In this document: one piece after another, positions 25,085-37,435 of the stretch
Numbering within the stretch: the stretch's first letter is position 1
How the letters are laid out: each line of letters opens with the position of its first letter
Assembly (NCBI RefSeq): GCF_000013565.1
Contig: NC_007802.1
Span: 2,852,001-2,916,000, forward strand
Direction of reading: 5' to 3'
Origin: Jannaschia sp. CCS1
GTDB taxonomy: Bacteria; Pseudomonadota; Alphaproteobacteria; Rhodobacterales; Rhodobacteraceae
DNA: 64,000 nucleotides
Made by a program: the position numbers and the translations under genes
Notes under the pieces: model-generated
Told to the model about the DNA's origin: nothing
The model's database searches: none
The model's input: only the letters and a program-made list of their open reading frames with translations

Positions 25085-25100
25085 TGGTGCCCGGGGGCGG
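25085..25100. repeat. Left attachment site (attL core)
   Basis: TGGTGCCCGGGGGCGG, identical to the 3'-terminal 16 bases (complement) of tRNA-Phe at 37361-37376. Identity stops right after the core on the chromosomal side, and on the island side both copies are close to GCATAACC (25100-25107; 37323-37330). Confidence 0.85.
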
Positions 25101-25138
25101 CATAACCTATTGTTTTAATTATAATAAGAAACGAGGCG

Positions 25139-25429: not shown

Positions 25430-25900
25430 TCAGATGGGACGCGGCGGCGTTTCCGGGAAAAACAATCTGGTCGGAGACGGGCTTGGATGCCGAATAAATG
25501 CGAAGAGACCGCAGATCGTGTCGGCCCTGACGCCTTGTGCGAGCCCACATTCCCATACAATGGCGACCTTCCAGCCCATTTCGATTAAGGCTCTTTCGTT
25601 GCTGCAATCCCGCCGGACATTTGCTTCGAACTTCGCCTGCCAGAATTTGGGACGTGTCGCTGGAGTGCTCGCATACTTGCACCCGGCATGACGATGCCAG
25701 AAGCAACCGTGGACAAAAATGGCCGTTCGCCATTTCGGCAGCACGATATCGGGAGAACCAGGCAAAGATCGGACGTCCAGCCGGAACCTGAATCCTGCCG
25801 CATGCAGTTCTTGGCGAACCACCATTTCCGGTTTGGTGTTCCTTCGGCGGATCGAAGCCATCATCCTCGATCGCGTTTCCGCCGAAACGATGTCTACCAT
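25430..25900 (-). CDS. vsr: Very short patch repair endonuclease Vsr
   Basis: Vsr nicks DNA at T:G mismatches that arise when 5-methylcytosine deaminates, protecting sites methylated by the partner methyltransferase. The 156-aa protein has the hallmark N-terminus MMASIRRRNTKPEMVVRQEL, the catalytic Asp in SLPGSPDIVLPKWRTAIFVH, GCFWHRH with zinc-binding His/Cys (HAGCKYAS), and WKVAIVWECGL. It starts at 25900, divergent from the cytosine methyltransferase at 25976 with 75 bp between them, so the two share a control region. Vsr-like enzymes also occur as restriction nucleases, a possible alternative here. Confidence 0.92.
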   Translation of the reverse strand: MVDIVSAETRSRMMASIRRRNTKPEMVVRQELHAAGFRFRLDVRSLPGSPDIVLPKWRTAIFVHGCFWHRHAGCKYASTPATRPKFWQAKFEANVRRDCSNERALIEMGWKVAIVWECGLAQGVRADTICGLFAFIRHPSPSPTRLFFPETPPRPI

Positions 25901-25975
25901 CGATGAGTGCCCCCTTTGCCCCTGGCACGGCCTGCAGTCTTCAGTTTAGAAGGTTGCTCGAGAAAGGTGAAATGA

Positions 25976-27484
25976 ATGGACGGAAGCTTTGGCATTATCG
26001 ACCTCTTCGCTGGCCCAGGCGGCCTTGCGGAGGGGTTCTCCGCAGCAGGCCGCGAGACGGATACACGCATGAAGATCCGCCTCTCCATCGAGAAGGAGGC
26101 GACGGAGGTGCGCACACTTCGGCTGCGCGCATTCCTGCGTGGGTTCGATGGTGGCTTCCCGACGGAATACTACGCGGCACTCAACGCTAGCGAACCGCTA
26201 CCTGACTGGTCGGAGCTTTTTCCCGCCCGCTGGGCTGACGCCTGCAAGGAGGCGTGGCAAATGGAGTTGGGGCAGCCCGGTGTGTTCGAGGTGATCGCGA
26301 ACGTCCTCGATCGGACGCGCGAGGAACATGATGGTAACACCATCCTCATCGGCGGCCCCCCGTGCCAAGCCTACAGTCTGGCTGGACGTGCGAGAAACAA
26401 AGGTGTTGCGGACTACGTGGCAGAGAAGGATTCGAGGCATTTCCTCTACAGAGAGTACGTAGAGATTCTGAAGCGGCTAAGGCCCGCCGTCTTCGTCATG
26501 GAGAACGTCAAGGGCATGCTGTCCAGCAAGGTGAATGGCGGCGAGATCTTCGAGCGCGTCCTTGACGACCTACGCAACGCAGGTGACGGCTATACGCTCG
26601 TGCCTTTGTCTGCTCAGCGCAACCGTGAACATTTAGCGGCCCGGGACTTCATTGTACGCGCCGAGGAACACGGTGTCCCGCAGGCGAGGCATCGAGTGTT
26701 CGTCGTCGGCATACGCAATGATCTGCCGACGCCGGAAGGCGACATGCCCCTCATGCCAGCCGTAGATCAGAACTGCCGCGCGGATGTACATTCCGTTCTG
26801 GGCAGCCTGCCTGCACTTCGCAGCGGCCTGAGCCGTCAGCGAGACAATCCCGCAGCTTGGCGCAAAGTCGTACTTGAACACGCCAAACGTCTCATCGCCA
26901 GCAAGAAGGTGGATTCCGAACTGCGCCAGTATCTTGCAGAGCTGAAGAAAAGCAGTTTGGCGCGTGCATTCGAGCGTTGCCAGTCGACGAGGTCGTGTGA
27001 TGAGAGCGGGATGCCTCCCCAGCTTGCCGAATGGTTGATCGATCCCGCTCTGCAGCGGATCAGCGGACACGAGACCCGTGCGCATATCGCCGCGGATCTA
27101 GGCCGATATCTTTTCGTCTCGGCCTTTGGACGTGAGTACGGCCGATCGCCCAAGCTCTCCGAATTTCCCGACTATCTGCTACCTGCTCACCGAAATCGCT
27201 ATAGCGGAGCCTTCGCTGACAGGTTCCGGGTGCAGATAGCCGAACGTCCCTCCAGCACGGTCACTAGCCACATCTCGAAGGATGGCCACTATTTCATCCA
27301 TCCGGATCCGACTCAGGTCCGTTCACTAACAGTTCGCGAGGCCGCGCGCCTCCAGACCTTCCCGGACAACTACGTCTTTTGCGGAAACAGGACACAGCAA
27401 TATCATCAGGTCGGAAACGCGGTTCCTCCGTTCCTAGCGCTACGGATCGCACGTGTGATCCGAGACATTATGGGGCGCTTCTGA
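25976..27484 (+). CDS. DNA (cytosine-5-)-methyltransferase of the tRNA-Phe island
   Basis: A 502-aa C5 cytosine methyltransferase. Motif I is FGIIDLFAGPGGLAEGF (SAM binding), motif IV is ILIGGPPCQAYSLAGRAR with nucleophile C130, motif VI is VFVMENVKGML, motif VIII carries QARHRVFVVGIR, and motifs IX-X are SLTVREAARLQTFPD and QVGNAVPP. The insert between motifs I and IV (about residues 30-120) and the long region from 270 to 400 are larger than in simple Dcm enzymes, so the target domain is unusual. The ATG at 25976 follows AAAGGTGA. The target sequence cannot be read off. The last 79 bp overlap the convergent DUF6339-like gene. Confidence 0.93.
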   Translation: MDGSFGIIDLFAGPGGLAEGFSAAGRETDTRMKIRLSIEKEATEVRTLRLRAFLRGFDGGFPTEYYAALNASEPLPDWSELFPARWADACKEAWQMELGQPGVFEVIANVLDRTREEHDGNTILIGGPPCQAYSLAGRARNKGVADYVAEKDSRHFLYREYVEILKRLRPAVFVMENVKGMLSSKVNGGEIFERVLDDLRNAGDGYTLVPLSAQRNREHLAARDFIVRAEEHGVPQARHRVFVVGIRNDLPTPEGDMPLMPAVDQNCRADVHSVLGSLPALRSGLSRQRDNPAAWRKVVLEHAKRLIASKKVDSELRQYLAELKKSSLARAFERCQSTRSCDESGMPPQLAEWLIDPALQRISGHETRAHIAADLGRYLFVSAFGREYGRSPKLSEFPDYLLPAHRNRYSGAFADRFRVQIAERPSSTVTSHISKDGHYFIHPDPTQVRSLTVREAARLQTFPDNYVFCGNRTQQYHQVGNAVPPFLALRIARVIRDIMGRF

Positions 27485-28281
27485 TCCGGCTTTCCGGCAG
27501 TATCTCCACGTTGCGAAATGCCCTCCGAAGACCTGGCGAAGGCATGTTCCACTTCCTTGGCGAGTTCCTCAGGGGAAAGGTAGGTCAGGTCAATGATCTG
27601 GTTGCGCATCCTGAGGAGCTTTGTAGCGCGCCTCATGACATTCTCCATGCGTGCTCGACCAATGCGTTCGGCGGCCTCGAGCCAGCCAGCCGCAATGGCC
27701 CGCGCAAGCTGGGCGTCCGACGCTATCGACGCACGCTCGAATATCTGGACCATCGCATCCTCGCTGAGCCCCTCAAGCAGCCGCCAGCGATCGTCACCCG
27801 AACTTTCGCCCTGATCAAGGGTGCGGCCGCGCATCCAGAGCCTCTGAATAGTGTTGCGCACACCTCCGGAGAAACGCGCTCTCTGTCGCGCAGAATAGCG
27901 CCAGACAACGAGCTCCTGAAGCATGATGCAGGCGAGAAAGGCCCATACGTCATCGCGAAGCAATTCAGGAGAAGCCAACTGCGTGTGTCCGGCCAGCCAT
28001 TTCGCCGCGTCGATATCGAAGGCTGCCTTCTGTTTATCAGAAGCCCGGTCAGGAAAGCCGTGCCGTTTCGCAATCGCCGTCAGCGAGGAGCGAATTTCGT
28101 CAACCAATTCGGGAGAAACTGAACCGCCGCTTGGAGCATACCAAATCCATCCCTCATATTCGTTCCGGCGTCTATCTAAGCCAAAGAGTTCGCCTTTGTC
28201 GTCGGCGAGACGTTCGAGATCCTCCATGCATCTCGTGACACCAATAGCGTTCAGGCGCGGAAGAAGCCTCACATTGCTCAT
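27406..28281 (-). CDS. DUF6339-like protein, last gene of the Z1/GHKL defence operon
   Basis: A 291-aa protein starting at 28281 (MSNVRLLPRLNAIGV), overlapping the preceding gene by 4 bp. It is mostly helical, with WIWYAPSGGSVSPELVDEI in the N-terminal third, LRDDVWAFLACIMLQELVVWRY in the middle and a basic C-terminus. No catalytic motif is obvious. I associate it with the DUF6339 family because such proteins accompany Z1 and DUF4420 genes; that is from memory of neighbourhoods, not a search. Its final 79 bp are antisense to the methyltransferase 3' end. Confidence 0.6.
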   Translation of the reverse strand: MSNVRLLPRLNAIGVTRCMEDLERLADDKGELFGLDRRRNEYEGWIWYAPSGGSVSPELVDEIRSSLTAIAKRHGFPDRASDKQKAAFDIDAAKWLAGHTQLASPELLRDDVWAFLACIMLQELVVWRYSARQRARFSGGVRNTIQRLWMRGRTLDQGESSGDDRWRLLEGLSEDAMVQIFERASIASDAQLARAIAAGWLEAAERIGRARMENVMRRATKLLRMRNQIIDLTYLSPEELAKEVEHAFARSSEGISQRGDTAGKPDQKRPIMSRITRAIRSARNGGTAFPT

Positions 28282-29192
28282 TCGATATCCCCTAATTCGG
28301 CCGCAGCATGGATGCTGGCATGGAAATGGCCCGGCAGGCTGTGCCGGATGTTCCTGACTTCGGACAGTTCGCGGCCGGGAAACGCCAAGTCGAGCCAGCC
28401 AGCGATCTGCGCGCCGACCGAGCCTTCCTCGCATCCATTGAGTTGCTCCGCGACATCTTCCGCGTCGAGAGCGGCCCCGACAATCTGCACCATCACGTCA
28501 CCGAGGATCGCCTGCAGCGTGAGCGTATCGCCGCTCACGACCCGTTCCGCCAATTCCTCATGGTCCGAATTGACGTAGAGGCGGATCGAGCCCCCGAAAT
28601 CTGCGGAGAGCCCTCCCGGCTTCCAAGAGAGATACCAAGGCGCCGTGACGTGCCGGTGGTTAGGGAACGTCTCGGTGAAGGAGACGACCTCGATCGGGAA
28701 CCGGTTGTCGCCACCATCCTCGAGCTCGACCGAGAATTCGTCCGTCCAAAGGCGAGATCCGGTGCGGGTGGGGGACAGGATCGAGGCATTCTCGGCTGGC
28801 GTCGCGAGGAGCACGTCGATGCGCACATGCAGACGACCAGACAGTGTATTTCCAGGTACGATTGCATGCAGTTCCACCGGCTGATCCGTCTCCGCATCGA
28901 CAAATCGAGAACTCACGCGTTCGACGATCCTTGGAAAGCGACCCCGACCCGTACCAATTTTGAGAACGATCGCGAGCTTCAGTTCTTCGTCCGGGATCGC
29001 AAGCATCTCGGCTGCGACCCGCCGGTCGATCGATATGGAACCGCGAAACTCGATATCCGCTGCGTAATCCCATTCGTCGAAAATGGGTTTCATAGGCGGG
29101 AGAGGTCCACCGGTCTGGCCGATCATCCAGCGTCCCAGTGTTACAGCCTCATCCGGTAGGCTCAGGAACGGAAAGGCAAAGCTTGCGGTCAT
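28278..29192 (-). CDS. Unrecognised 304-aa component of the Z1/GHKL defence operon
   Basis: No family recognised. The protein is acidic, with alternating beta-type stretches (IEFRGSISIDRRVAAEMLAI, KLAIVLKIGTGRGRFPRIVE, GRLHVRIDVLLATPAENASI) that look like a beta-sandwich, then a helical C-terminal part. No transmembrane segment or nuclease motif is visible. It overlaps both neighbours by 4 bp (ATGA), so it is made together with the GHKL ATPase and the DUF6339-like protein. It may be a scaffold or target-recognition subunit; this is inference. Confidence 0.6.
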   Translation of the reverse strand: MTASFAFPFLSLPDEAVTLGRWMIGQTGGPLPPMKPIFDEWDYAADIEFRGSISIDRRVAAEMLAIPDEELKLAIVLKIGTGRGRFPRIVERVSSRFVDAETDQPVELHAIVPGNTLSGRLHVRIDVLLATPAENASILSPTRTGSRLWTDEFSVELEDGGDNRFPIEVVSFTETFPNHRHVTAPWYLSWKPGGLSADFGGSIRLYVNSDHEELAERVVSGDTLTLQAILGDVMVQIVGAALDAEDVAEQLNGCEEGSVGAQIAGWLDLAFPGRELSEVRNIRHSLPGHFHASIHAAAELGDIE

Positions 29193-31036
29193 TTGGCACT
29201 TTCCTCCTCGAAGCTGAAGCGGATGCCGACGGCTGAATCTTCCGGCACGGTGACACGGCAGGAGACGGTTCCCTGCACCTCCTCGATCCTAATTCCTTCG
29301 GAACCGGCGATCCTATCCCCGAGTGACAGGTCCACGAGGTCGACAACTATGTCGCCGGGCAGATCGTCTGCCGAGGTCAAGGAGCCATCCAGCACCAGAT
29401 GCGGACTTCCATGAAGGATGAGATCAGGCCGACTGCCATCGTTGGTCAGGTTAGCCTCGAACCTTGCTACGCGCTGTCCGTCATGGTGCTCAAGACCAAC
29501 GAAACGTGGTGCGGAGATCGTGATCTTCTTCCTGCTCCCGATACCGCTGGGGGAGGTCGCCCGACCCGGCCCCTTGCCCGAGGTGCTGGACAGAAGTCTG
29601 CCCAGCTTGGCCGCGGTCTTGGCAACAGAGGGCCCGCGATCCTCGCCCGTTCCAAGGGCAGCCATCGGCTGGACGTAGGTCGCCGCAGCCAGTTTCAGTT
29701 CCCGAAGCGCCACATTGACGAAGGTCTTGGATCGGCCCTTCGGCAGCATGTCAGGGATCCAGTCGTCATGTGCCGGAGGTTCGGCAACGGCGAAGGCCTT
29801 CTCGACCTCGTCCTCCTTCGAGCAGATGAAGACACCTGCCCATTCGAAGCGATTGTCCGCGAAGGCCTCGCCGGGCAGGTACCGGACGACCAGTTCCACG
29901 GGCCGCATCAGCGCAATGGCATGCGCCTGCTGGCGCATCGGGCTCTCCTCGCGCAGCGCCATCAGGTTGCGCGGCGCATTCAGTCCCCGGACAATCGAGA
30001 GACGGCCGAGGTCAGCAATCGGTTTACCGCTTCGGATTGTGGTGACTTCCCCGTCACCTTCGCCACGAACGTTTCGCAACGCTTGGGCATAAAGATCGAG
30101 CGGCGGGTAATTCTCGGGCACCGGGATCTCGACTTGCTCGCCCTCGAATTCGACACGCACCTCAATCTTTCGCTCTGGCGACGTAAAACGGCACATCCTC
30201 GGCCAGAAGTTCCAGAGAACAGTTTCTACGAGTTCAGCACGCAGATCTTCCCCGCGATCCACGTGGGGAGCAATGATCGCGATCGTCGTACCAGGCAGGC
30301 TCTCGTTTCGCGAAGGAAGTCCAAGGAGTTTGGAGAGCTCGACCGCTTCCGCGCCCTCGAGCGGTTCCACGCCACCTTCGTCATCGTGACGCCCCCACCA
30401 ATGCCGCCCGGTGAAGCAGCGACGCGCCTCGTCCGTGACAGCCTCAAAGGCATCGCCCAGATGGCATCCCATGATCCGGCGAACAGGGCTTCCATCGCAG
30501 GTGGTCTGGCTATCTGCGATAATGGTGGAGACGCGGCTCAATGAATAAAGCGAAGTCTTTCCGTAACCATAGGTCCCCCCACCGTGTTGCGTGTCACGCG
30601 CCGCGCCGACATTGCGTAGAAAATTAACGAAATCGAGGTCTTCTTCACCCATCGCGACATCCGCGCGGGTAGGTCCCGCCAAGCCAGTGGTATTGAAATC
30701 GGCGATCTCAAGAATCGAGAGGCGTTCCTCGCCAAGGAGGTCGCGCAAGCTAGCCTTGTCGTCATCCTCGTTGGTCGAATCTGCCTCTTTCGGCGGGAGC
30801 ATCCCGAAAAAGAAATCGCGCATCGAGGCAAGCGTCTCACCTTCTAGCGTCCGAAACCGCAGAAGAACCTCTACCTTGTTGCCCCTAGGTGCCGCATCGA
30901 CCGAGTTCTGCAGTGCTTCCCGGATCACCGTTTGTAGGAGGCCAAGCGTAGGGCGACCCAAGAGGCGTCGAAACCCCTCGCCGGCGATGTTTCCGGTCCG
31001 AGCAAATTTCTCGCTATGCAGATCAAGTGGGGTCAT
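29189..31036 (-). CDS. GHKL (MutL/MORC-like) ATPase of the defence operon
   Basis: A 615-aa protein with an N-terminal GHKL ATP-binding domain. The N box is TVIREALQNSVDAA (E40 catalytic, N44 Mg-binding). The G1 box is ILEIADFNTTGLAG, with the usual DxGxG loosened to D-x-N-x-x-G. The lid is GGGTYGYGKTSLYSLS (152-167). The remaining part resembles MutL-type transducer and accessory regions but gives no clear nuclease. I set the start at the ATG at 31036; the longer frame upstream overlaps the DUF4420 gene. GHKL ATPases of this kind clamp DNA and could couple ATP use to the nuclease subunit next door. Confidence 0.78.
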   Translation of the reverse strand: MTPLDLHSEKFARTGNIAGEGFRRLLGRPTLGLLQTVIREALQNSVDAAPRGNKVEVLLRFRTLEGETLASMRDFFFGMLPPKEADSTNEDDDKASLRDLLGEERLSILEIADFNTTGLAGPTRADVAMGEEDLDFVNFLRNVGAARDTQHGGGTYGYGKTSLYSLSRVSTIIADSQTTCDGSPVRRIMGCHLGDAFEAVTDEARRCFTGRHWWGRHDDEGGVEPLEGAEAVELSKLLGLPSRNESLPGTTIAIIAPHVDRGEDLRAELVETVLWNFWPRMCRFTSPERKIEVRVEFEGEQVEIPVPENYPPLDLYAQALRNVRGEGDGEVTTIRSGKPIADLGRLSIVRGLNAPRNLMALREESPMRQQAHAIALMRPVELVVRYLPGEAFADNRFEWAGVFICSKEDEVEKAFAVAEPPAHDDWIPDMLPKGRSKTFVNVALRELKLAAATYVQPMAALGTGEDRGPSVAKTAAKLGRLLSSTSGKGPGRATSPSGIGSRKKITISAPRFVGLEHHDGQRVARFEANLTNDGSRPDLILHGSPHLVLDGSLTSADDLPGDIVVDLVDLSLGDRIAGSEGIRIEEVQGTVSCRVTVPEDSAVGIRFSFEEESAK

Positions 31037-32037
31037 GAGGTGAACTCCGACAAGACGGCTGCCGTCTGCGCCGGGTCGAGCAGATGCCCACGGGCGGTCG
31101 AGAGGTCGATCTCGTAGGTTAAATTCACGACTCCCGCGGGTAACATATCGTCCGAAAACGATGCGGGTGTCACGCTCGGAAAACCGGTCGACACGGCGTA
31201 GAAGTCTATACCTTCGATCGCGAAGCGCGTCGCATTCCATTCCTCTGCCCGCGGATCACGGCAACCTATTTCGGCCAACCGTTCGTCCAAGGCAAGCTCG
31301 TCTGTTCCATGCTTGATGATGGCCTGATGTAGCTCCGCGACGGAGAGAGCACCACCATCCACGGGCTCCAGCCGGATATGCACAAGGATCAGGCGACCGT
31401 CCGACGGAGGTAGAAGTTGTTCCGGCCCGTGTATTGTCACGCGCGCTGCATCGGAACGTAGTGAGCTCTTGACCTCGAGAGCGATGCTGCAGCGGCGGAA
31501 GTCGTGGCGCTGGCCGATCGGGCCGGTCCATCCGTCCAGCGCTTCGGGTCGCATAGCGGTCAGTCTTTCGAGGATAACCAACTCACCGATCAGCCCGCCG
31601 AGCTTGGTGAGAGGTATCTCGCCCTCGGGTGTCTTGGCGAGAAGATTGCGAAAGTCCTGTATGGTCCCGTGGACAGAGGATTCCGGGGGCTCGCCGTTCT
31701 CCAGCCTTTTAAGTATCTCCTCGACCAGTTCGGTGAAGACCCTGGTCAGCTGCGAATTGCGCAGAGTCACGTCGATGAAATGCTCGAGCTTTCCCGATGA
31801 TCTGAATGAAGAACGCGCGAGGACGAGGTTGCGGCTACCAACATTCGTACTCCCGCTGGCAGGACTTCCCACGGGAACGAGAAGCCGGGGTTCGCCTTGC
31901 GGGCCGATGGCGATGCGCACATGACCGTAGCCGGTTGTCACTGCCGTCGCACGGCTCGGAACTTCCAGGATTCCGTCACCTTGTCCAGTGGCGCGGATCT
32001 CGATCCATTCCCTCTCGAGCAATCCAAGATCATGCAT
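31033..32037 (-). CDS. PD-(D/E)XK motif protein (DUF4420-like), candidate nuclease of the defence operon
   Basis: A 334-aa protein with a recognisable PD-(D/E)XK core: helix GLIGELVILERL (E152), then WTGPIGQRHDF (D179) and the strand ALEVKSSLRS (E188-x-K190). This is the layout of DUF4420 proteins found next to Z1 ATPases. It should be the DNA-cutting component. The start at 32037 overlaps the Z1 gene by 8 bp and the stop overlaps the GHKL gene by 4 bp. Confidence 0.75.
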   Translation of the reverse strand: MHDLGLLEREWIEIRATGQGDGILEVPSRATAVTTGYGHVRIAIGPQGEPRLLVPVGSPASGSTNVGSRNLVLARSSFRSSGKLEHFIDVTLRNSQLTRVFTELVEEILKRLENGEPPESSVHGTIQDFRNLLAKTPEGEIPLTKLGGLIGELVILERLTAMRPEALDGWTGPIGQRHDFRRCSIALEVKSSLRSDAARVTIHGPEQLLPPSDGRLILVHIRLEPVDGGALSVAELHQAIIKHGTDELALDERLAEIGCRDPRAEEWNATRFAIEGIDFYAVSTGFPSVTPASFSDDMLPAGVVNLTYEIDLSTARGHLLDPAQTAAVLSEFTS

Positions 32038-34648
32038 CGGTGCCTTCCACTTCCTCGATCTGATCCTCGCCCTCTTCTGTCTCCTCGAGTGCCGGGGCCT
32101 CGATATCGACCGAGAAATAGCCGCCCGAGCGATCCTTCTGTCCCGGAAAAACGATGCCGAACCCGACGATGTCCGACACTGCGTCGAGTGCGACACGGGA
32201 AGGCGGCTTGTCGCCGCTCGATTTCCGTTCCTGTGGTTTCGATTTCGCGTCGATCAGGTAGAGGAGCAGTAGAGGTGCCTCCGGGCGGCAAGCCTTGTAG
32301 GTCGTCCAATCCTCCCTGCCCTCGGGCTCCCGATCAGCGTCGATCAGGATGTCGGCCTTGGACATCAATGCTTTGATGTCGGCGTAACGGGGGGATGCCT
32401 CGCTCAGGCGCGATCGACGCATGGTCGGAACTTGTCCGAGCTTGCCGAGCGGTTTGGCGGATTTCGTGTTCGATTTCGTCTGGATGACCGCAACGTTCCA
32501 GTGGGCAAGCGAGCTCTCCGCCTCGTCGAGATAGCGGATCAGATGCGGTTTCTTGAGGTCCATGTGCTCGCCGGAGATCTCGGTCGCGGCGACGAAGCGG
32601 CGCACCAACTGGAAGCGTATGTCCCGGAACAGGATTCCCCTTGTCTCCTCTGTTGCCTTGGCTGTTTCCAACATCGAGTCAACGAGTTGCGAGGCGGCGT
32701 TCCAGTTGCCCCCAACGATCTCACTATCACGATGATCGAAGCGTATGGTCTGTACGTGCTTTCCCGAGAAACTCATACTCGTACGGAGTGCGTGCTTCAT
32801 CTTCGTCGCCGCTGTGATCGCCATGCCGGGGATCGAGCGCACCTTCACCGCGAAGTCGCGCGGCGTGAGCTTGTTCTCGCGATAGACCGCGATGTCCGCG
32901 CGAATCTCCTCCTCGATCACGGCCAGAGAGCGGAACTTCGAAGCAAGATCCTCGGTCGTCCAGAGGCGTGGAAGATCTTCGTAGTCGCGGCGGTAGCCGA
33001 ACCAGCGACCCATCTGGAGCAACGTATCATACTGCTTCGAAGTCCTCAGGAAGAACGAGACGCAGAGCCCTTCAAGAGTGAGTCCGCGAGCAAGAACCGT
33101 TCCCCCGACCACGATGCAAGTGACCGGATCGCCTGTGTAGTCGAGGCGCAGGGCTTCTTCCGTCTCGCCATTCTCGACCGGATAGCGGAGTGCATCGATG
33201 ACCGCGGGTAGATAAGCAAGAACGGTATCGAAATCCTCCGGGATGCGATCTCGGCCAGCAGGAGCTGTTCGTTCCAGTTCGCGCTCGAAAACCTCGCGAA
33301 GTCTCTCTGCGGGTTCGCCAGTCCCGGCGATCAGGTCGGACTTTCTCTGTTCCACCCAGTTACGTATTAGCCCGGACATATATTCGTGCTGGCGCACATA
33401 CTGCGAGGAATGAACCAGCATCGACATGTGCTCGCCGTCCTGCCCACGTGAACGGCGGATGGCGCAGCTAGTAAGAAACCAGAGGATCGCGTCCTCGAGA
33501 CTCCGGGTCATTTCGGGATGGAAACTCTCCTTGTTTTTCGGCGAGGTTGGTCGCAGGCGATCCGGATCGTCTTGATGAAGGATGCGGATCATGTCGCGCT
33601 CTTCGCCTTCCGGCTCGGCGCTGTCGCTTCCGAAGACTTCGCGAGCTCCGAAATAACCGATTGGCTGCTCCAGTGCCGTGATGAAATCCCGCGGGTAGAG
33701 GTCATCCAGATCCTCGTCGTTACCGTAGGGATAGGGGTTGATGAATACATTGGCAAAGGGTGTTGCGGTGTAGCCGACGTAGGTGACGGCCGGCAGAGCA
33801 GCCAAGACAGTCCGGATCTCGGCATTGATCCGGGTCATGTCGAACTCGCCGCGCGCGGAATTCACAGAGGCCTGATCACATTCATCATCTATCAGGAGCA
33901 CCCTAAGCTCTCGCAAGACGACCGCTGGCGTTCTGGCAATCGTGCGGCGCAGCTGCTTGAGACGGCTCCCTTCCTTTTTCATTACGATCAACTGGGCGTG
34001 AGCCTCAGACGGCATTGCAAAGCCCCCGTTCGCAGGCTGGACGAAATCCCCTGCCGAATCGCTGGTGGTATATAGCTGCCAGAGACTGCGGTGGCGCAAA
34101 ACATCCTGCTCGAAGCGATCTTGGGTCTGCTTCCTGAGCTTGTTGGTCACCCCACCGAGAACGATGATCATGTTGTATCCGGCATCGACGGCCTTCGCCA
34201 TTACGGCTGTCATGTTGGCGGTCTTGCCGGATTGCACGTATCCTACCACCAAGCCGCGGCAAGCAAACTTGCCTCTTCCAGGATTGCCCAAGAGCGACAC
34301 TACCTCTGTAGAGGCTTTGTCAAGTGAACCTATCGTGTGGGGATTCCAGCCCTTTGTCTTGAGGTACTCGTGCAGCGCCGTCCAATGATGGCTGTTCTTA
34401 CCCGGCCCATGATACCAGTCTTCGGGAGCATCGACGATCGAGTGTCGACGGAGGATCTCTACGTCTTGGATCTCCGCTCTAACGATCTCCACGGCCTTTT
34501 CAAGATTTCCGATCATCTCTGGTCCCAAAGCCCCGAACAACCCCTCCATCTCGAGGCGGCAGGCGGCTGCGGCGTCATCGAGGGTGTGATAATTTGCACG
34601 TCTCTGACGGAGCTGAGTGGCGAAGGTCTCGATCTGGGGAGATGGCAT
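32030..34648 (-). CDS. Z1-domain ATPase/helicase-like protein, first gene of the defence operon
   Basis: An 872-aa P-loop protein. Walker A is VVGYVQSGKTANMTAVM (around 136-146), Walker B is RVLLIDDECDQAS (250-261). The region VVGGTVLARGLTLEGLCVS...LLQMGRWFGYR holds the superfamily-2-like motifs V and VI with an arginine finger, as in Z1 domain proteins. An N-terminal 100-residue helical domain precedes the ATPase. Z1 proteins have been predicted to be the motor of modification-dependent or MutL/MORC-associated restriction systems. It heads a five-gene operon whose genes all overlap. A short upstream gap to 34755 should contain the promoter. Confidence 0.85.
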   Translation of the reverse strand: MPSPQIETFATQLRQRRANYHTLDDAAAACRLEMEGLFGALGPEMIGNLEKAVEIVRAEIQDVEILRRHSIVDAPEDWYHGPGKNSHHWTALHEYLKTKGWNPHTIGSLDKASTEVVSLLGNPGRGKFACRGLVVGYVQSGKTANMTAVMAKAVDAGYNMIIVLGGVTNKLRKQTQDRFEQDVLRHRSLWQLYTTSDSAGDFVQPANGGFAMPSEAHAQLIVMKKEGSRLKQLRRTIARTPAVVLRELRVLLIDDECDQASVNSARGEFDMTRINAEIRTVLAALPAVTYVGYTATPFANVFINPYPYGNDEDLDDLYPRDFITALEQPIGYFGAREVFGSDSAEPEGEERDMIRILHQDDPDRLRPTSPKNKESFHPEMTRSLEDAILWFLTSCAIRRSRGQDGEHMSMLVHSSQYVRQHEYMSGLIRNWVEQRKSDLIAGTGEPAERLREVFERELERTAPAGRDRIPEDFDTVLAYLPAVIDALRYPVENGETEEALRLDYTGDPVTCIVVGGTVLARGLTLEGLCVSFFLRTSKQYDTLLQMGRWFGYRRDYEDLPRLWTTEDLASKFRSLAVIEEEIRADIAVYRENKLTPRDFAVKVRSIPGMAITAATKMKHALRTSMSFSGKHVQTIRFDHRDSEIVGGNWNAASQLVDSMLETAKATEETRGILFRDIRFQLVRRFVAATEISGEHMDLKKPHLIRYLDEAESSLAHWNVAVIQTKSNTKSAKPLGKLGQVPTMRRSRLSEASPRYADIKALMSKADILIDADREPEGREDWTTYKACRPEAPLLLLYLIDAKSKPQERKSSGDKPPSRVALDAVSDIVGFGIVFPGQKDRSGGYFSVDIEAPALEETEEGEDQIEEVEGTDA

Positions 34649-34754
34649 TACAAACCTTTGGTTGAAAACTCTTTTCTATATCTAGCTTCACGCAGGTTCG
34701 CGCGTAAAGAACCGGATGCGGCACTCCGCAAATTGAAAGAGATCCGCAGGGCGA

Positions 34755-34925
34755 CTAAAGTGGGATCGCCCGGGCCACCCGATTGCGTTGGTCGATGATC
34801 ACCGCCAGACAGTGCCGGACGCCGCCATTGCGCAACATTTCCCGAGCGTCTCGCTCAGCCTCGCGGCGCCGCTCCGCACGACGGTCCGCATGTTTACGGG
34901 CTTCGTCCGTGCCAACGAGCTGCAT
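34755..34925 (-). CDS. Possible small protein (56 aa), unknown
   Basis: A short open frame from an ATG at 34925 encodes a highly charged N-terminal helix (TDEARKHADRRAERRREAER) and a hydrophobic end (RHCLAVIIDQRNRVARAI). It lies just upstream of the Z1 gene on the same strand. A longer frame upstream lacks protein-like character. It may be a leader or regulator of the defence operon, or not a gene at all. Confidence 0.3.
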   Translation of the reverse strand: MQLVGTDEARKHADRRAERRREAERDAREMLRNGGVRHCLAVIIDQRNRVARAIPL

Positions 34926-35295
34926 TAGCCAGCGTGTGTAGGTCCGAACCCGGAGCCAGAAAATACCGCATAACGCGACTTGCTGTGGCCATTCAGACGC
35001 CACGCATCGAGGCGAACCAACCAGAACACCCGCCACGCCTTGTTCTCGTAACGTTTCGACCGCACCGGAGGTCCTCCCATGACCGAAGGAACCCCACGTG
35101 CCCGCAAACGGTACCCCGAAACGGAGGTGCAATTAGCGGACGGATACCAACACCGGAAGTATCGCAAGATAAAAGGCCTGGCACGGTTGCCAAGCAGGCG
35201 GTTGAATTCTCGGCCAATTCGCCGTGCCGGATCGACACGGACCGTGCCAATCCTTCTGGCAAGTGATTGATTTCCAAAGGATGCAACCGTGCCAA
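34907..35295. repeat. Cluster of CCGTGCC heptamers in the island control region
   Basis: CCGTGCC occurs at 34907, 35222, 35242 and 35287 and in inverted orientation (GGCACGG) at 35180-35186; three of the direct copies continue as CCGTGCCAA. The region 34926-35465 (540 bp) has no convincing gene, so the repeats may be binding sites for the AlpA-like protein encoded downstream or for the integrase. Confidence 0.5.
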
Positions 35296-35465
35296 CGCAA
35301 GGACCTCGCGCGCTCCATCTGCCTGACGTCCAGACGACGCGAGAAGCCAATAGCCGCCCTGCACCTGCCCTTCTACGACTCTTCTCTACGCACACGTTTC
35401 GCGGCTTTGGTTTGGCCGCCCCCTGCGGCATTCTTGGGGAAACCGGACCCGCTATCGAACCTAAC

Positions 35466-35705
35466 ATGCCAAAGCGCCCCGCCATCCTGCCGCCCACTCT
35501 CCAGCCACGCGGACTCTCTAGAACGGAGTCAGCAGCCTATATCGGCGTGTCGCCTACTCTCTTCGATCACCTGGTCCGCGACCGGCGCATGCCGCCTCCC
35601 AAGCGGATCAATGCCCGCACGGTCTGGGACCGGAATAAACTTGACCGGGCGTTCGAGCTGATCCCTGATGTGGATCACTCCGACCACAATCCCTGGGACG
35701 ACTGA
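35466..35705 (+). CDS. AlpA/excisionase-like HTH DNA-binding protein
   Basis: A 79-aa protein starting at ATG 35466. Residues about 15-45 (GLSRTESAAYIGVSPTLFDH LVRDRRMPPPKRI) are the MerR-like helix-turn-helix of AlpA/HTH_17 proteins, in which a helix-turn-helix is followed by a Pro-rich wing. Such proteins regulate the integrase or act as recombination directionality factors. It ends 25 bp before the integrase start, so both are probably one transcript. Confidence 0.75.
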   Translation: MPKRPAILPPTLQPRGLSRTESAAYIGVSPTLFDHLVRDRRMPPPKRINARTVWDRNKLDRAFELIPDVDHSDHNPWDD

Positions 35706-35730: not shown

Positions 35731-36843
35731 ATGCCTACATTCAGAATGAGAGACGGCTCGGGCAGCATCCGCCTGAAACACGTCATCGAGGACACCGACC
35801 GGCACGGGAACGTGCGCCTCTACCTGCGGCGGCCCGGGCACCTCAAGGTGCGGCTGCGCAGCCAGCCGGGAACGGAGGACTTCCTCGCCGAGTACCGTGT
35901 AGCCATGATGGGCGCGACACCGCGCGCGCCGGCCGGGCCGCTCGAACGGCGCGGCTCGAAGGGCAGCTTCAAATGGCTCTGCGAGCAGTATTACGTCTCG
36001 GCCGAATACCAGCGGCTGAGTGGCCGCACCAAGTACGTCCGGCGCGGCATCCTCGACCGGATCTGCGAGAAGAACGGATCGAAGCCCTACGCGCTGATGG
36101 AGCCCCGTCACGTCCGCCGCATGCGCGACGAGATGGCCGACCGGCCCGAGGCCGCGAACGGCTTCGTCAAGGCGCTCAGGCAGGTCTATGCCTTCGCCGT
36201 GGAGTACGAGCTGGCGCAGCGCAACCCGGCCCGCGACGTGCCCTACCTCAAGGCCAAGGGCGACGGCTTCCACTCCTGGACGATGGAGGAGGTCCGCCAG
36301 TTCGAGGACCATCACCCGATCGGCAGCAAGCCGCGGCTGGCGCTCGCGCTCATGCTGTACACCGGGCAGCGGCGGTCTGACATCGTCCGGCTCGGGCCAC
36401 AGCACATCAAGGACGGCTGGATCACCATGACGCAGGCCAAGAACCGCGACCGCAAGCCCGTCACCCTCTCCATCCCGGTCCTGCTGGAGCTGAAGGCGGT
36501 GCTCGATGCCACGCCCACCGGCAACCTCGCCTTCCTCGTCACGACCTTCGGCAAGCCCTTCACCTCGAACGGCTTCGGCAACTGGTTTCGCAAGCAATGC
36601 GACGTGGCCGGGTTGAAGCATTGCTCCGCCCACGGGCTGCGCAAGGCGGGCGCGGCGCTGGCGGCCGAGAACGGCGCGACCGAGCGGCAACTGATGGCGA
36701 TCTTCGGCTGGTCGACCATGAAGGAAGCCTCGCGCTACACCCGCGCCGCGCGCCAGAAGGTGCTGGCGGCGTCCGGGATGAAGCTGTTGTCGCGGGACGC
36801 GGGCGGGCCGGGAAGAGGGGAAGCGCGGGGTGGCGGTACCTGA
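35731..36843 (+). CDS. Tyrosine integrase of the tRNA-Phe island
   Basis: A 370-aa tyrosine recombinase. The N-terminal part has a DUF4102-free, SAM-like core-binding domain (KWLCEQYYVSAEYQRLS...KALRQVYAFAVEYELAQRNPA). The catalytic domain has R214 (LYTGQRRSDIVRL), H301-x-x-R304 (SAHGLRKAGA), W327 in place of the usual His (IFGWSTMKEASRY) and nucleophile Y336. All residues needed for strand exchange are present. It lies about 0.5 kb from the right attachment core in tRNA-Phe, the usual position for an integrase. Confidence 0.92.
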   Translation: MPTFRMRDGSGSIRLKHVIEDTDRHGNVRLYLRRPGHLKVRLRSQPGTEDFLAEYRVAMMGATPRAPAGPLERRGSKGSFKWLCEQYYVSAEYQRLSGRTKYVRRGILDRICEKNGSKPYALMEPRHVRRMRDEMADRPEAANGFVKALRQVYAFAVEYELAQRNPARDVPYLKAKGDGFHSWTMEEVRQFEDHHPIGSKPRLALALMLYTGQRRSDIVRLGPQHIKDGWITMTQAKNRDRKPVTLSIPVLLELKAVLDATPTGNLAFLVTTFGKPFTSNGFGNWFRKQCDVAGLKHCSAHGLRKAGAALAAENGATERQLMAIFGWSTMKEASRYTRAARQKVLAASGMKLLSRDAGGPGRGEARGGGT

Positions 36844-37360: not shown

Positions 37361-37376
37361 TGGTGCCCGGGGGCGG
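37361..37376. repeat. Right attachment site (attR core) inside tRNA-Phe
   Basis: TGGTGCCCGGGGGCGG, the complement of the CCA end, discriminator, acceptor 3' strand and first T-arm bases of tRNA-Phe. The island restores the complete tRNA 3' end, so the gene stays functional. Confidence 0.85.
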
Positions 37377-37435
37377 AATCGAACCACCGACACGAGGATT
37401 TTCAATCCACTGCTCTACCCCTGAGCTACCCGGGC
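37361..37435 (-). tRNA. tRNA-Phe (GAA)
   Basis: Read on the minus strand, the 7-bp acceptor GCCCGGG pairs with CCCGGGC followed by ACCA. The D arm is GCTC-AGGGGTA-GAGC, the anticodon loop TTGAAAA gives anticodon GAA, and the T arm is GGTGG-TTCGATT-CCGCC. The anticodon stem GTGGA/TCCTC contains one T-T mismatch. The CCA is genome-encoded. It is the attachment target of the 12.3-kb island to its left. Confidence 0.95.

Follow-up and report, generated by a model that had tools for sequence, protein, structure and literature searches.

A probable ATP-dependent restriction-modification system with exchangeable modules, carried at tRNA-Phe in Jannaschia sp. CCS1

Seven genes at positions 25430-34648 of the 64,000-nucleotide stretch of Jannaschia sp. 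CCS1 DNA analysed here (the window; contig NC_007802.1, 2,852,001 to 2,916,000) probably encode a methylation-dependent, ATP-dependent restriction-modification (RM) system, carried as cargo by an integrative element at tRNA-Phe. We favour this reading because the motifs checked are intact, because methyltransferase and Vsr genes are frequent at loci that carry DUF4420, the family of the putative nuclease, and because two comparative-genomic studies had already proposed RM systems of this kind (Iyer, Abhiman & Aravind 2008, PMC2292703; Miller, Stern & Burstein 2022, PMC9523054). The locus appears to be a mobile, intact copy of the type predicted in 2008 and 2022. The genes are as follows.

25430-25900, minus strand: Vsr mismatch endonuclease, 156 amino acids (Pfam 5.6e-28; TIGR00632 3.4e-40, over cut-off)
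25976-27484, plus strand: C5 cytosine methyltransferase, 502 amino acids (Pfam DNA_methylase 9.5e-48; TIGR00675 3.3e-42, over cut-off; motifs)
27406-28281, minus strand: DUF6339 protein, 291 amino acids (Pfam 3e-7, over cut-off; alignment; structure model)
28278-29192, minus strand: X304, an orphan protein of 304 amino acids (alignments; structure model)
29189-31036, minus strand: paraMORC2-type GHKL ATPase, 615 amino acids (GHKL and ExxxH motifs; PADLOC PDC-M33A 9.2e-17)
31033-32037, minus strand: DUF4420 PD-(D/E)XK protein, 334 amino acids (Pfam 1.5e-61; motif columns)
32030-34648, minus strand: Z1-domain superfamily 2 (SF2) ATPase, 872 amino acids (Pfam 1.1e-70; motifs)

The five minus-strand operon genes run in the order Z1, DUF4420, GHKL, X304, DUF6339, with successive overlaps of 8, 4, 4 and 4 bp, the starts of the DUF4420, GHKL and DUF6339 genes being internal ATGs that we selected. 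The methyltransferase gene is convergent with this operon, its 3' end and the DUF6339 gene sharing 79 bp on opposite strands; the Vsr gene lies upstream of the methyltransferase gene and diverges from it. Methyltransferase and nuclease genes thus stand together at one locus, and the coordinates bear out an earlier note on this DNA, which had described five genes overlapping by 4-8 bp with a methyltransferase and Vsr adjoining them on a mobile island. The motifs checked are present in the Z1 protein (GYVQSGKT, DDE and DTLLQMGRWFGYR) and in the methyltransferase (DLFAGPGG, PPCQ and ENV). Across the 29 aligned rows of DUF4420 the E-D-ExK set is nearly complete (E152 in 29, D179 in 29, E188 in 27, K190 in 28), and in a 7-row alignment of the GHKL protein E40, N44, D113 and G153-K160 are invariant; the residues singled out in the earlier note, GHKL E40 and DUF4420 E188/K190, are therefore both intact and conserved. 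In Pfam the GHKL protein matched HATPase_c alone, at 0.0099 and under that model's cut-off, and X304 matched no family above cut-off, its sole match being MazG at 0.22.

Relatives were sought in genome, plasmid and phage collections, and profile hidden Markov models (HMMs) built from the window proteins were run on the fetched loci. X304 is rare: it matches in 2 of 149 genomes of the family and 4 of 385 of the class (own genome included in each), in 2 of 369 genomes of the class of G602 (G602 itself included, its sequence having been part of the profile), at 2 loci in a scan of genome contigs with single-protein patterns, in 3 of 72,556 plasmid records and in none of 50,697 phage records. DUF4420 is commoner, matching in 27 of 398 genomes of the phylum, 24 of them over cut-off; we examined 23 of the 24 above-cut-off loci (21 newly fetched, L041-L061, which include L057; L013 from G425; and the window's own, L007), leaving out a short match in G646 and three sub-cut-off matches. 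Of the 12 X304-bearing loci examined, 11 preserve the order Z1-(DUF4420)-GHKL-X304-DUF6339, and the gene set is therefore a genuine arrangement, more than chance. Following Miller et al. (2022), we call these 11 loci type I (L007, L004, L005, L011, L012, L013, L057, L064, L065, L066 and L067, of which L012 begins at a contig end that cuts its Z1 gene), and we use type II as shorthand for the other 20 DUF4420 loci, among which L058-L061 are divergent and possibly of another kind.

By the window-protein HMMs, GHKL-X304-DUF6339 is found at none of these 20 loci, where instead a MORC-like cluster is present at 14, a further GHKL cluster at 2 (representative L061, HATPase_c_3 3.3e-15) and an AIPR cluster at 14; conversely, the AIPR cluster is absent from the 8 X304-bearing loci that were included in the clustering. 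From this distribution the triad of paraMORC2-type GHKL protein, X304 and DUF6339 occupies the place held elsewhere by the MORC-like and AIPR proteins. The latter recall the MZA system, reportedly described by Gao in 2020 with genes mzaABCDE: the representatives in L045 match MzaB (MORC-like, 1.1e-99) and MzaE (AIPR, 4.4e-113), both under the equivalog cut-offs. A Z1 tree of 30 rows separates all 11 type-I rows from the rest by a single branch (support 100/99); the division between types needs 2 changes on the tree of DUF4420, because the cyanobacterial row is unresolved.

Three observations on neighbouring and decayed loci may be recorded here. A same-family genome holds a degraded type-I remnant (L006, 9121-11024) comprising DUF6339, a partial X304 with an in-frame TGA and a partial DUF4420, in which no Z1, GHKL, methyltransferase or Vsr was detected. 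Directly upstream of the type-I operons of L064 and L066 (1718-4379 and 1719-4380, respectively) are genes annotated as an AAA-family ATPase and a helicase-like protein, a pair possibly reminiscent of Gabija. At 2644-5157 of L041, adjoining its MORC/AIPR genes, is a large protein that matches ankyrin, sigma-70 and GcrA-like models (the family search was made with the L041 protein), whose cluster recurs at the MORC/AIPR loci L042 and L050; from these matches it is perhaps the counterpart of MzaA, which Miller et al. (2022) term a sigma factor.

The modification genes follow a history of their own. In 7 of the 11 type-I loci (the window, L004, L005, L011, L013, L057 and L067) the fetched stretch includes both a C5 methyltransferase and Vsr, and among the 20 type-II loci the methyltransferase is found in 17 and Vsr in 14. 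One methyltransferase clade (support 91/97), common to both operon types, holds 16 of the 24 methyltransferases. The operons closest to that of the window are L004 and L005: window and L004 proteins are 83% (Z1), 69% (DUF4420), 74% (GHKL), 69% (X304) and 70% (DUF6339) identical, yet the methyltransferases are only 49% and the Vsr proteins 53% identical. Between L004 and the MORC/AIPR locus L041, by contrast, identity is 76% for the methyltransferase and 72% for Vsr, but only 33% for Z1 and 19% for DUF4420. While window, L004 and L005 form one clade in the Z1 tree (100/100), constraining them to one methyltransferase clade was rejected by the approximately unbiased (AU) test (p-AU 1.3e-7), as was a single clade of the 6 type-I methyltransferase rows (9e-6); both constraints were placed on the tree of the 16 same-clade methyltransferases, the other 8 being left out, with groups defined by operon, though after a first tree had been seen.

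Pairwise distances tell the same story. In same-clade rows, with the near-copy L005 dropped, Z1 and DUF4420 distances correlate strongly (r = 0.94, 15 rows) and methyltransferase and Vsr distances do so too (0.66, 14 rows), none of 5000 permutations being as high in either case; the values across the two groups are low (Z1-methyltransferase 0.14, p 0.084; DUF4420-methyltransferase 0.12, p 0.093; Z1-Vsr 0.12, p 0.105), though saturated methyltransferase distances may depress these three, a reservation that does not touch the L004/L041 case. In the loci sampled, methyltransferase with Vsr and Z1 with DUF4420 are thus shown by sequence comparison to be two modules that reassort.

The simplest account of this reassortment would be that the main methyltransferase clade keeps one target, read by operons of both types. 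Consistent with it, the second half of the methyltransferase recognition region is about as conserved in 15 clade rows as the catalytic block (0.48 vs 0.52), the value for the same half in 7 methyltransferases of other clades being 0.17; this suggests, short of proof, a common target for the clade, and so speaks for RM. Several points weigh on the other side. Within the clade the first half of that region shows poor conservation (0.25). L064, L065 and L066 have no methyltransferase inside the fetched stretch; in L065 one lies across the record start, in the opposite cluster, and in L066 a dcm, a vsr and a gene for a type II endonuclease are found some 8-11 kb past the triad, with the methyltransferase about 11 kb from it. 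L067 has a type-I operon with a methyltransferase from another clade, and this, with the low correlation between Z1 and methyltransferase, means that the methyltransferase is not locked to the operon. DUF4420 is present in 9 of the 11 type-I loci and missing from L064 (an Agrobacterium plasmid) and L066 (a Rhizobium plasmid), where the nuclease must therefore be dispensable or replaced. In the restriction operon itself we recognised no domain for DNA recognition.

Some of these points would suit a methylation-independent anti-phage system, in which Z1, paraMORC2, X304 and DUF6339 sense the structure of phage DNA or a phage protein and trigger cleavage or growth arrest, methyltransferase and Vsr merely accompanying or shielding: the modification genes reassort relative to the operon, an adjacent methyltransferase is missing at some triad loci, the triad replaces MORC and AIPR, the latter named after abortive infection, and DISARM, which neighbours the triad in one haloarchaeal locus (L071), can according to PMC9142583 restrict phage without a methylation motif. 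We nevertheless consider such a system unlikely, since a C5 methyltransferase is found at most loci of both types (17 of 20 and 7 of 11) and since a common methyltransferase clade with a conserved recognition half explains the reassortment more simply.

The pairing of Vsr with the methyltransferase also bears on a quite different explanation, that the genes are a set for DNA repair or mismatch processing drawn from the MutL-like family. The kinship of the GHKL protein with MutL and the presence of Vsr would fit, and Iyer et al. (2008) allow repair roles for versions outside RM contexts. We regard it as very improbable: the set is rare and patchy (X304 in 2 of 149 family and 4 of 385 class genomes, own included), its context is mobile, and Vsr co-varies with the methyltransferase, not with Z1. 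This co-variation argues rather that Vsr repairs deaminated 5-methylcytosine (5mC).

The triad reaches beyond the loci with Z1. Iyer et al. (2008) take as the mark of paraMORC2 an ExxxH conserved towards the C terminus of the S5 domain; the window protein, with its GHKL motifs and ExxxH, resembles these and may share the S5 fold, and its ExxxHD motif is aligned in all 14 GHKL proteins compared (the window and 13 others, including that of L069 and two haloarchaeal ones). L069 is a GHKL-X-DUF6339-methyltransferase cluster with no Z1 in it, on the same plasmid as L065. This plasmid, of Synechococcus elongatus IITB6, thus carries two GHKL-X-DUF6339 clusters (L069, 256-5820, and L065), divergent across the record start, one with Z1-DUF4420 and the other ending in a cytosine methyltransferase. 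Haloarchaeal plasmids have GHKL-X-DUF6339 in L070, L071 (the GHKL protein annotated as two genes) and L073, each stretch also containing a C5 methyltransferase. In L071 (390-9697) the triad lies a few kb downstream of the DISARM genes DrmB (1.8e-127) and DrmC (2e-44), and the methyltransferase adjoins an ATP-binding protein matching type II restriction enzymes, to which it may belong instead; at the edge of L073 (1-9697) is a gene annotated as phospholipase D, the family tests for DISARM genes having been made with L071. In L070 (1696-3457) an HhH-GPD protein (5e-16) stands beside the methyltransferase in the slot held elsewhere by Vsr, possibly as a non-orthologous replacement for repair of deaminated 5mC, which fits a repair role of that slot.

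This breadth led us to a tentative and rather doubtful extension of the RM reading: paraMORC2-X-DUF6339 might be a portable ATP-driven licensing module serving varied restriction machines (Z1 with DUF4420, Z1 without DUF4420, a cytosine methyltransferase cluster, DISARM surroundings), with the C5 methyltransferase and its Vsr or HhH-GPD partner as a second plug-in exchanged between operon types; restriction and modification in this superfamily would then be interchangeable parts with one mark in common. Profile comparison did not establish X304 as a homologue of the cyanobacterial and haloarchaeal X proteins (E 0.078 and 0.021; probability 0.7 and 2.2%). The X304 model has an N-terminal beta sandwich and a helical C-terminal half (predicted local distance difference test, pLDDT, 79.5; predicted template modelling score, pTM, 0.52; 8 sequences). 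Against the PDB, 12 Foldseek matches reached E <= 0.001; the 50 matches listed were mostly beta-sandwich proteins, with target-normalised template modelling (TM) scores of at most 0.54 and query-normalised scores of at most 0.29; the idea that X304 is a known DNA-recognition domain is unsupported by these, and a viral library gave nothing better. DUF6339 is modelled as all-alpha (pLDDT 78.1, pTM 0.75, 8 sequences) and had no PDB match at E <= 0.001, while sequence searches of the PDB with Z1 and a GHKL profile found nothing.

The seven genes are very likely the cargo of a small integrative element, as judged from an attachment-site copy and an integrase lying just inside tRNA-Phe. The other features of the element are these.

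25085-25103, plus strand: left attachment-site copy, 18 of 19 bases matching the tRNA-Phe 3' end as a direct repeat
35289-35705, plus strand: small open reading frame ahead of the integrase, a possible excisionase-like regulator by its position (HTH_31 0.077, below cut-off), whose true start may be internal
35731-36843, plus strand: tyrosine integrase, 370 amino acids (Pfam Phage_integrase 2.1e-16)
37361-37435, minus strand: tRNA-Phe (gaa), the insertion site, whose 3' end is the right attachment site (ARAGORN; Rfam RF00005)

The left copy pairs with the tRNA-Phe 3' end at 37361-37379, the separation to 37361 being 12,276 bp and the element thus about 12.3 kb long; other direct repeats of like length are poorer matches and look like chance. 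In 2-kb windows G+C is 57-61% over 25-36 kb, vs 62-67% over 9-25 kb and 63-67% over 37-60 kb; it is no proof of an island by itself, because the integrase end stands at 65% and the opening 9 kb of the window are likewise low (59-64%). Three Ruegeria/Tritonibacter replicons match the tRNA end without difference over its first 40 bases (6 records of the plasmid collection matched in all), and beyond the tRNA end that collection held no near-identical copy of the island. An empty insertion site was not demonstrated in the genus, where the left query (1085 bases) matched at most 628 bases, in 8 of 12 other genomes; the island flanks are about 45 kb apart in G1235 and G1240 and rearranged in other genomes of the genus. 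Copies of the tRNA-Phe 3' end, 45-48 nt long, were seen some 15-55 kb from tRNA-Phe in three same-genus genomes (G1240:C1, G1242:C1 and G1243:C2), and this tRNA-Phe may for that reason be an integration hotspot. Between the Z1 start and the small open reading frame about 0.8 kb (34650-35460) is without recognised gene; it gave no Rfam match, and the open reading frames in it were outside the protein-family scans. Promoter and terminator scans gave values near the shuffled mean.

Such a compact integrase and attachment-site element, in which no further recognised cargo was found, together with the patchy distribution, might indicate a chiefly selfish module: the RM set would keep the tRNA-Phe element in place by killing cells from which it is lost, and defence against phage would be secondary. 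We judge this improbable as the main role; it is compatible with RM and does not exclude it, and the relatives are located in larger, defence-rich plasmid regions.

For the favoured ATP-dependent RM system the following scheme can be proposed. The C5 methyltransferase would mark host DNA at one sequence, and Vsr, judging by its family and its travelling with the methyltransferase, would repair the T:G mismatches produced by deamination of 5mC. The Z1 ATPase would be a translocase on unmarked DNA, as suggested by the motor of the Z1-containing enzyme CglI (see below), and the DUF4420 PD-(D/E)XK protein, its residues conserved, a nuclease working with it. The paraMORC2 GHKL protein, X304 and DUF6339 may form a clamp-like complex that licenses or couples cleavage; in the sampled loci this triad fills the place of MORC and AIPR in MZA-like relatives, and the restriction operon and methyltransferase-Vsr pair would be separately exchangeable, as they are among those loci. 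The earlier note had proposed ATP-dependent sensing of unmodified or damaged DNA: sensing of unmodified DNA is plausible, while for sensing of damage, given the company Vsr keeps, we found nothing in support.

Among the open-access papers listed, none works out how the type-I form acts and none puts this gene set to experimental test, subscription papers being mostly outside the search; DUF6339 and PDC-M33 are named in no paper found. What is new here is the reassortment of modules and the finding of the triad in archaeal plasmids, in one case next to DISARM genes; the earlier note was made without two comparative facts, the conserved GHKL-X304-DUF6339 triad and the freedom of methyltransferase and Vsr from the operon. 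The window copy, compact and with defined ends, is convenient to clone. Should both operon types recognise one target, the methyltransferase of a MORC/AIPR-type locus would be expected to shield DNA from a type-I restriction operon. A prokaryotic paraMORC beside a cytosine mark also bears on the origin of eukaryotic MORC action on methylated chromatin, a link proposed by Iyer et al. (2008).

Among known systems, MZA is near in part: the window Z1 protein matches MzaC (1e-110) and the PD-(D/E)XK protein MzaD (3e-16) in NCBIfam, and with 371.1 and 59.5 bits both stay well short of the equivalog cut-offs of 1500 and 420 bits, as does the type-II comparison locus L045. Membership was rejected, since in place of the MORC-like MzaB and AIPR protein MzaE the window has X304 and DUF6339, no AIPR match being found among the nine island proteins scanned with Pfam and no MzaB or MzaE match among the seven scanned with NCBIfam. 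CglI, a Z1-containing enzyme that restricts DNA by inferred ATP-driven translocation and has its own methyltransferase (Toliusis 2017, PMC5737866), lends support to the RM reading; like NgoAVII it combines a Z1-containing SF2 ATPase, a separate nuclease and a methyltransferase. Their nuclease is a phospholipase D (PLD) enzyme with a B3-like domain, not PD-(D/E)XK, and the available text on CglI describes no GHKL, X or DUF6339 protein; membership was rejected, no PLD/B3 nuclease being found in the same nine proteins. Support comes also from GHKL ATPases in restriction or anti-phage nucleases: the BbrUII/HgiDII type (paraMORC3) and Shedu-type VcSduA (PMC12137116), which ties a GHKL ATPase to a PD-(D/E)XK nuclease in phage restriction, both share this pair with the window, though in VcSduA the two are one polypeptide and in the window they are separate and accompanied by a Z1 ATPase.

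With PADLOC the GHKL protein matched PDC-M33A (9.2e-17) and DUF6339 PDC-M33C (1.4e-4), both partially, with no PDC-M33B match reported and no model match for X304. The methyltransferase gave the sole match to a DISARM model (DrmMII, 2.1e-84) in the seven window proteins scanned, none of which matched DrmA, DrmB or DrmC, and systems with HEF_HK/Response_reg_2 as outlined in PMC8011034 were dismissed, neither domain being reported for the nine island proteins scanned. A Corynebacterium island described in PMC5379612 contains Z1, EcoRII-like, Dcm and DUF4420 genes and three unclassified ones.

The closest likenesses are to the two published predictions, and the earlier note was right both in its RM reading and in stating that comparative genomics had foreshadowed such sets. 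Iyer et al. (2008) predicted RM operons with a helicase, an E-D-ExK endonuclease, a GHKL MORC or paraMORC protein, a cytosine methyltransferase and Vsr, for which they proposed DNA looping; the SF2 helicase carries a DThhQXuRhFG motif, and the window agrees in the helicase motif, E-D-ExK endonuclease, ExxxH GHKL protein, cytosine methyltransferase and Vsr, differing in X304 and DUF6339, which the accessible part of that text does not name. Miller et al. (2022) reported, without experiment, a putative Type I system of Z1, PD-(D/E)XK protein (their printed DUF4220 probably stands for DUF4420), cytosine methyltransferase, three more genes and DNA repair endonucleases: the window has the first three together, three further genes that correspond to theirs in number, and, as repair endonuclease, the Vsr that it shares with the other type-I loci listed above.

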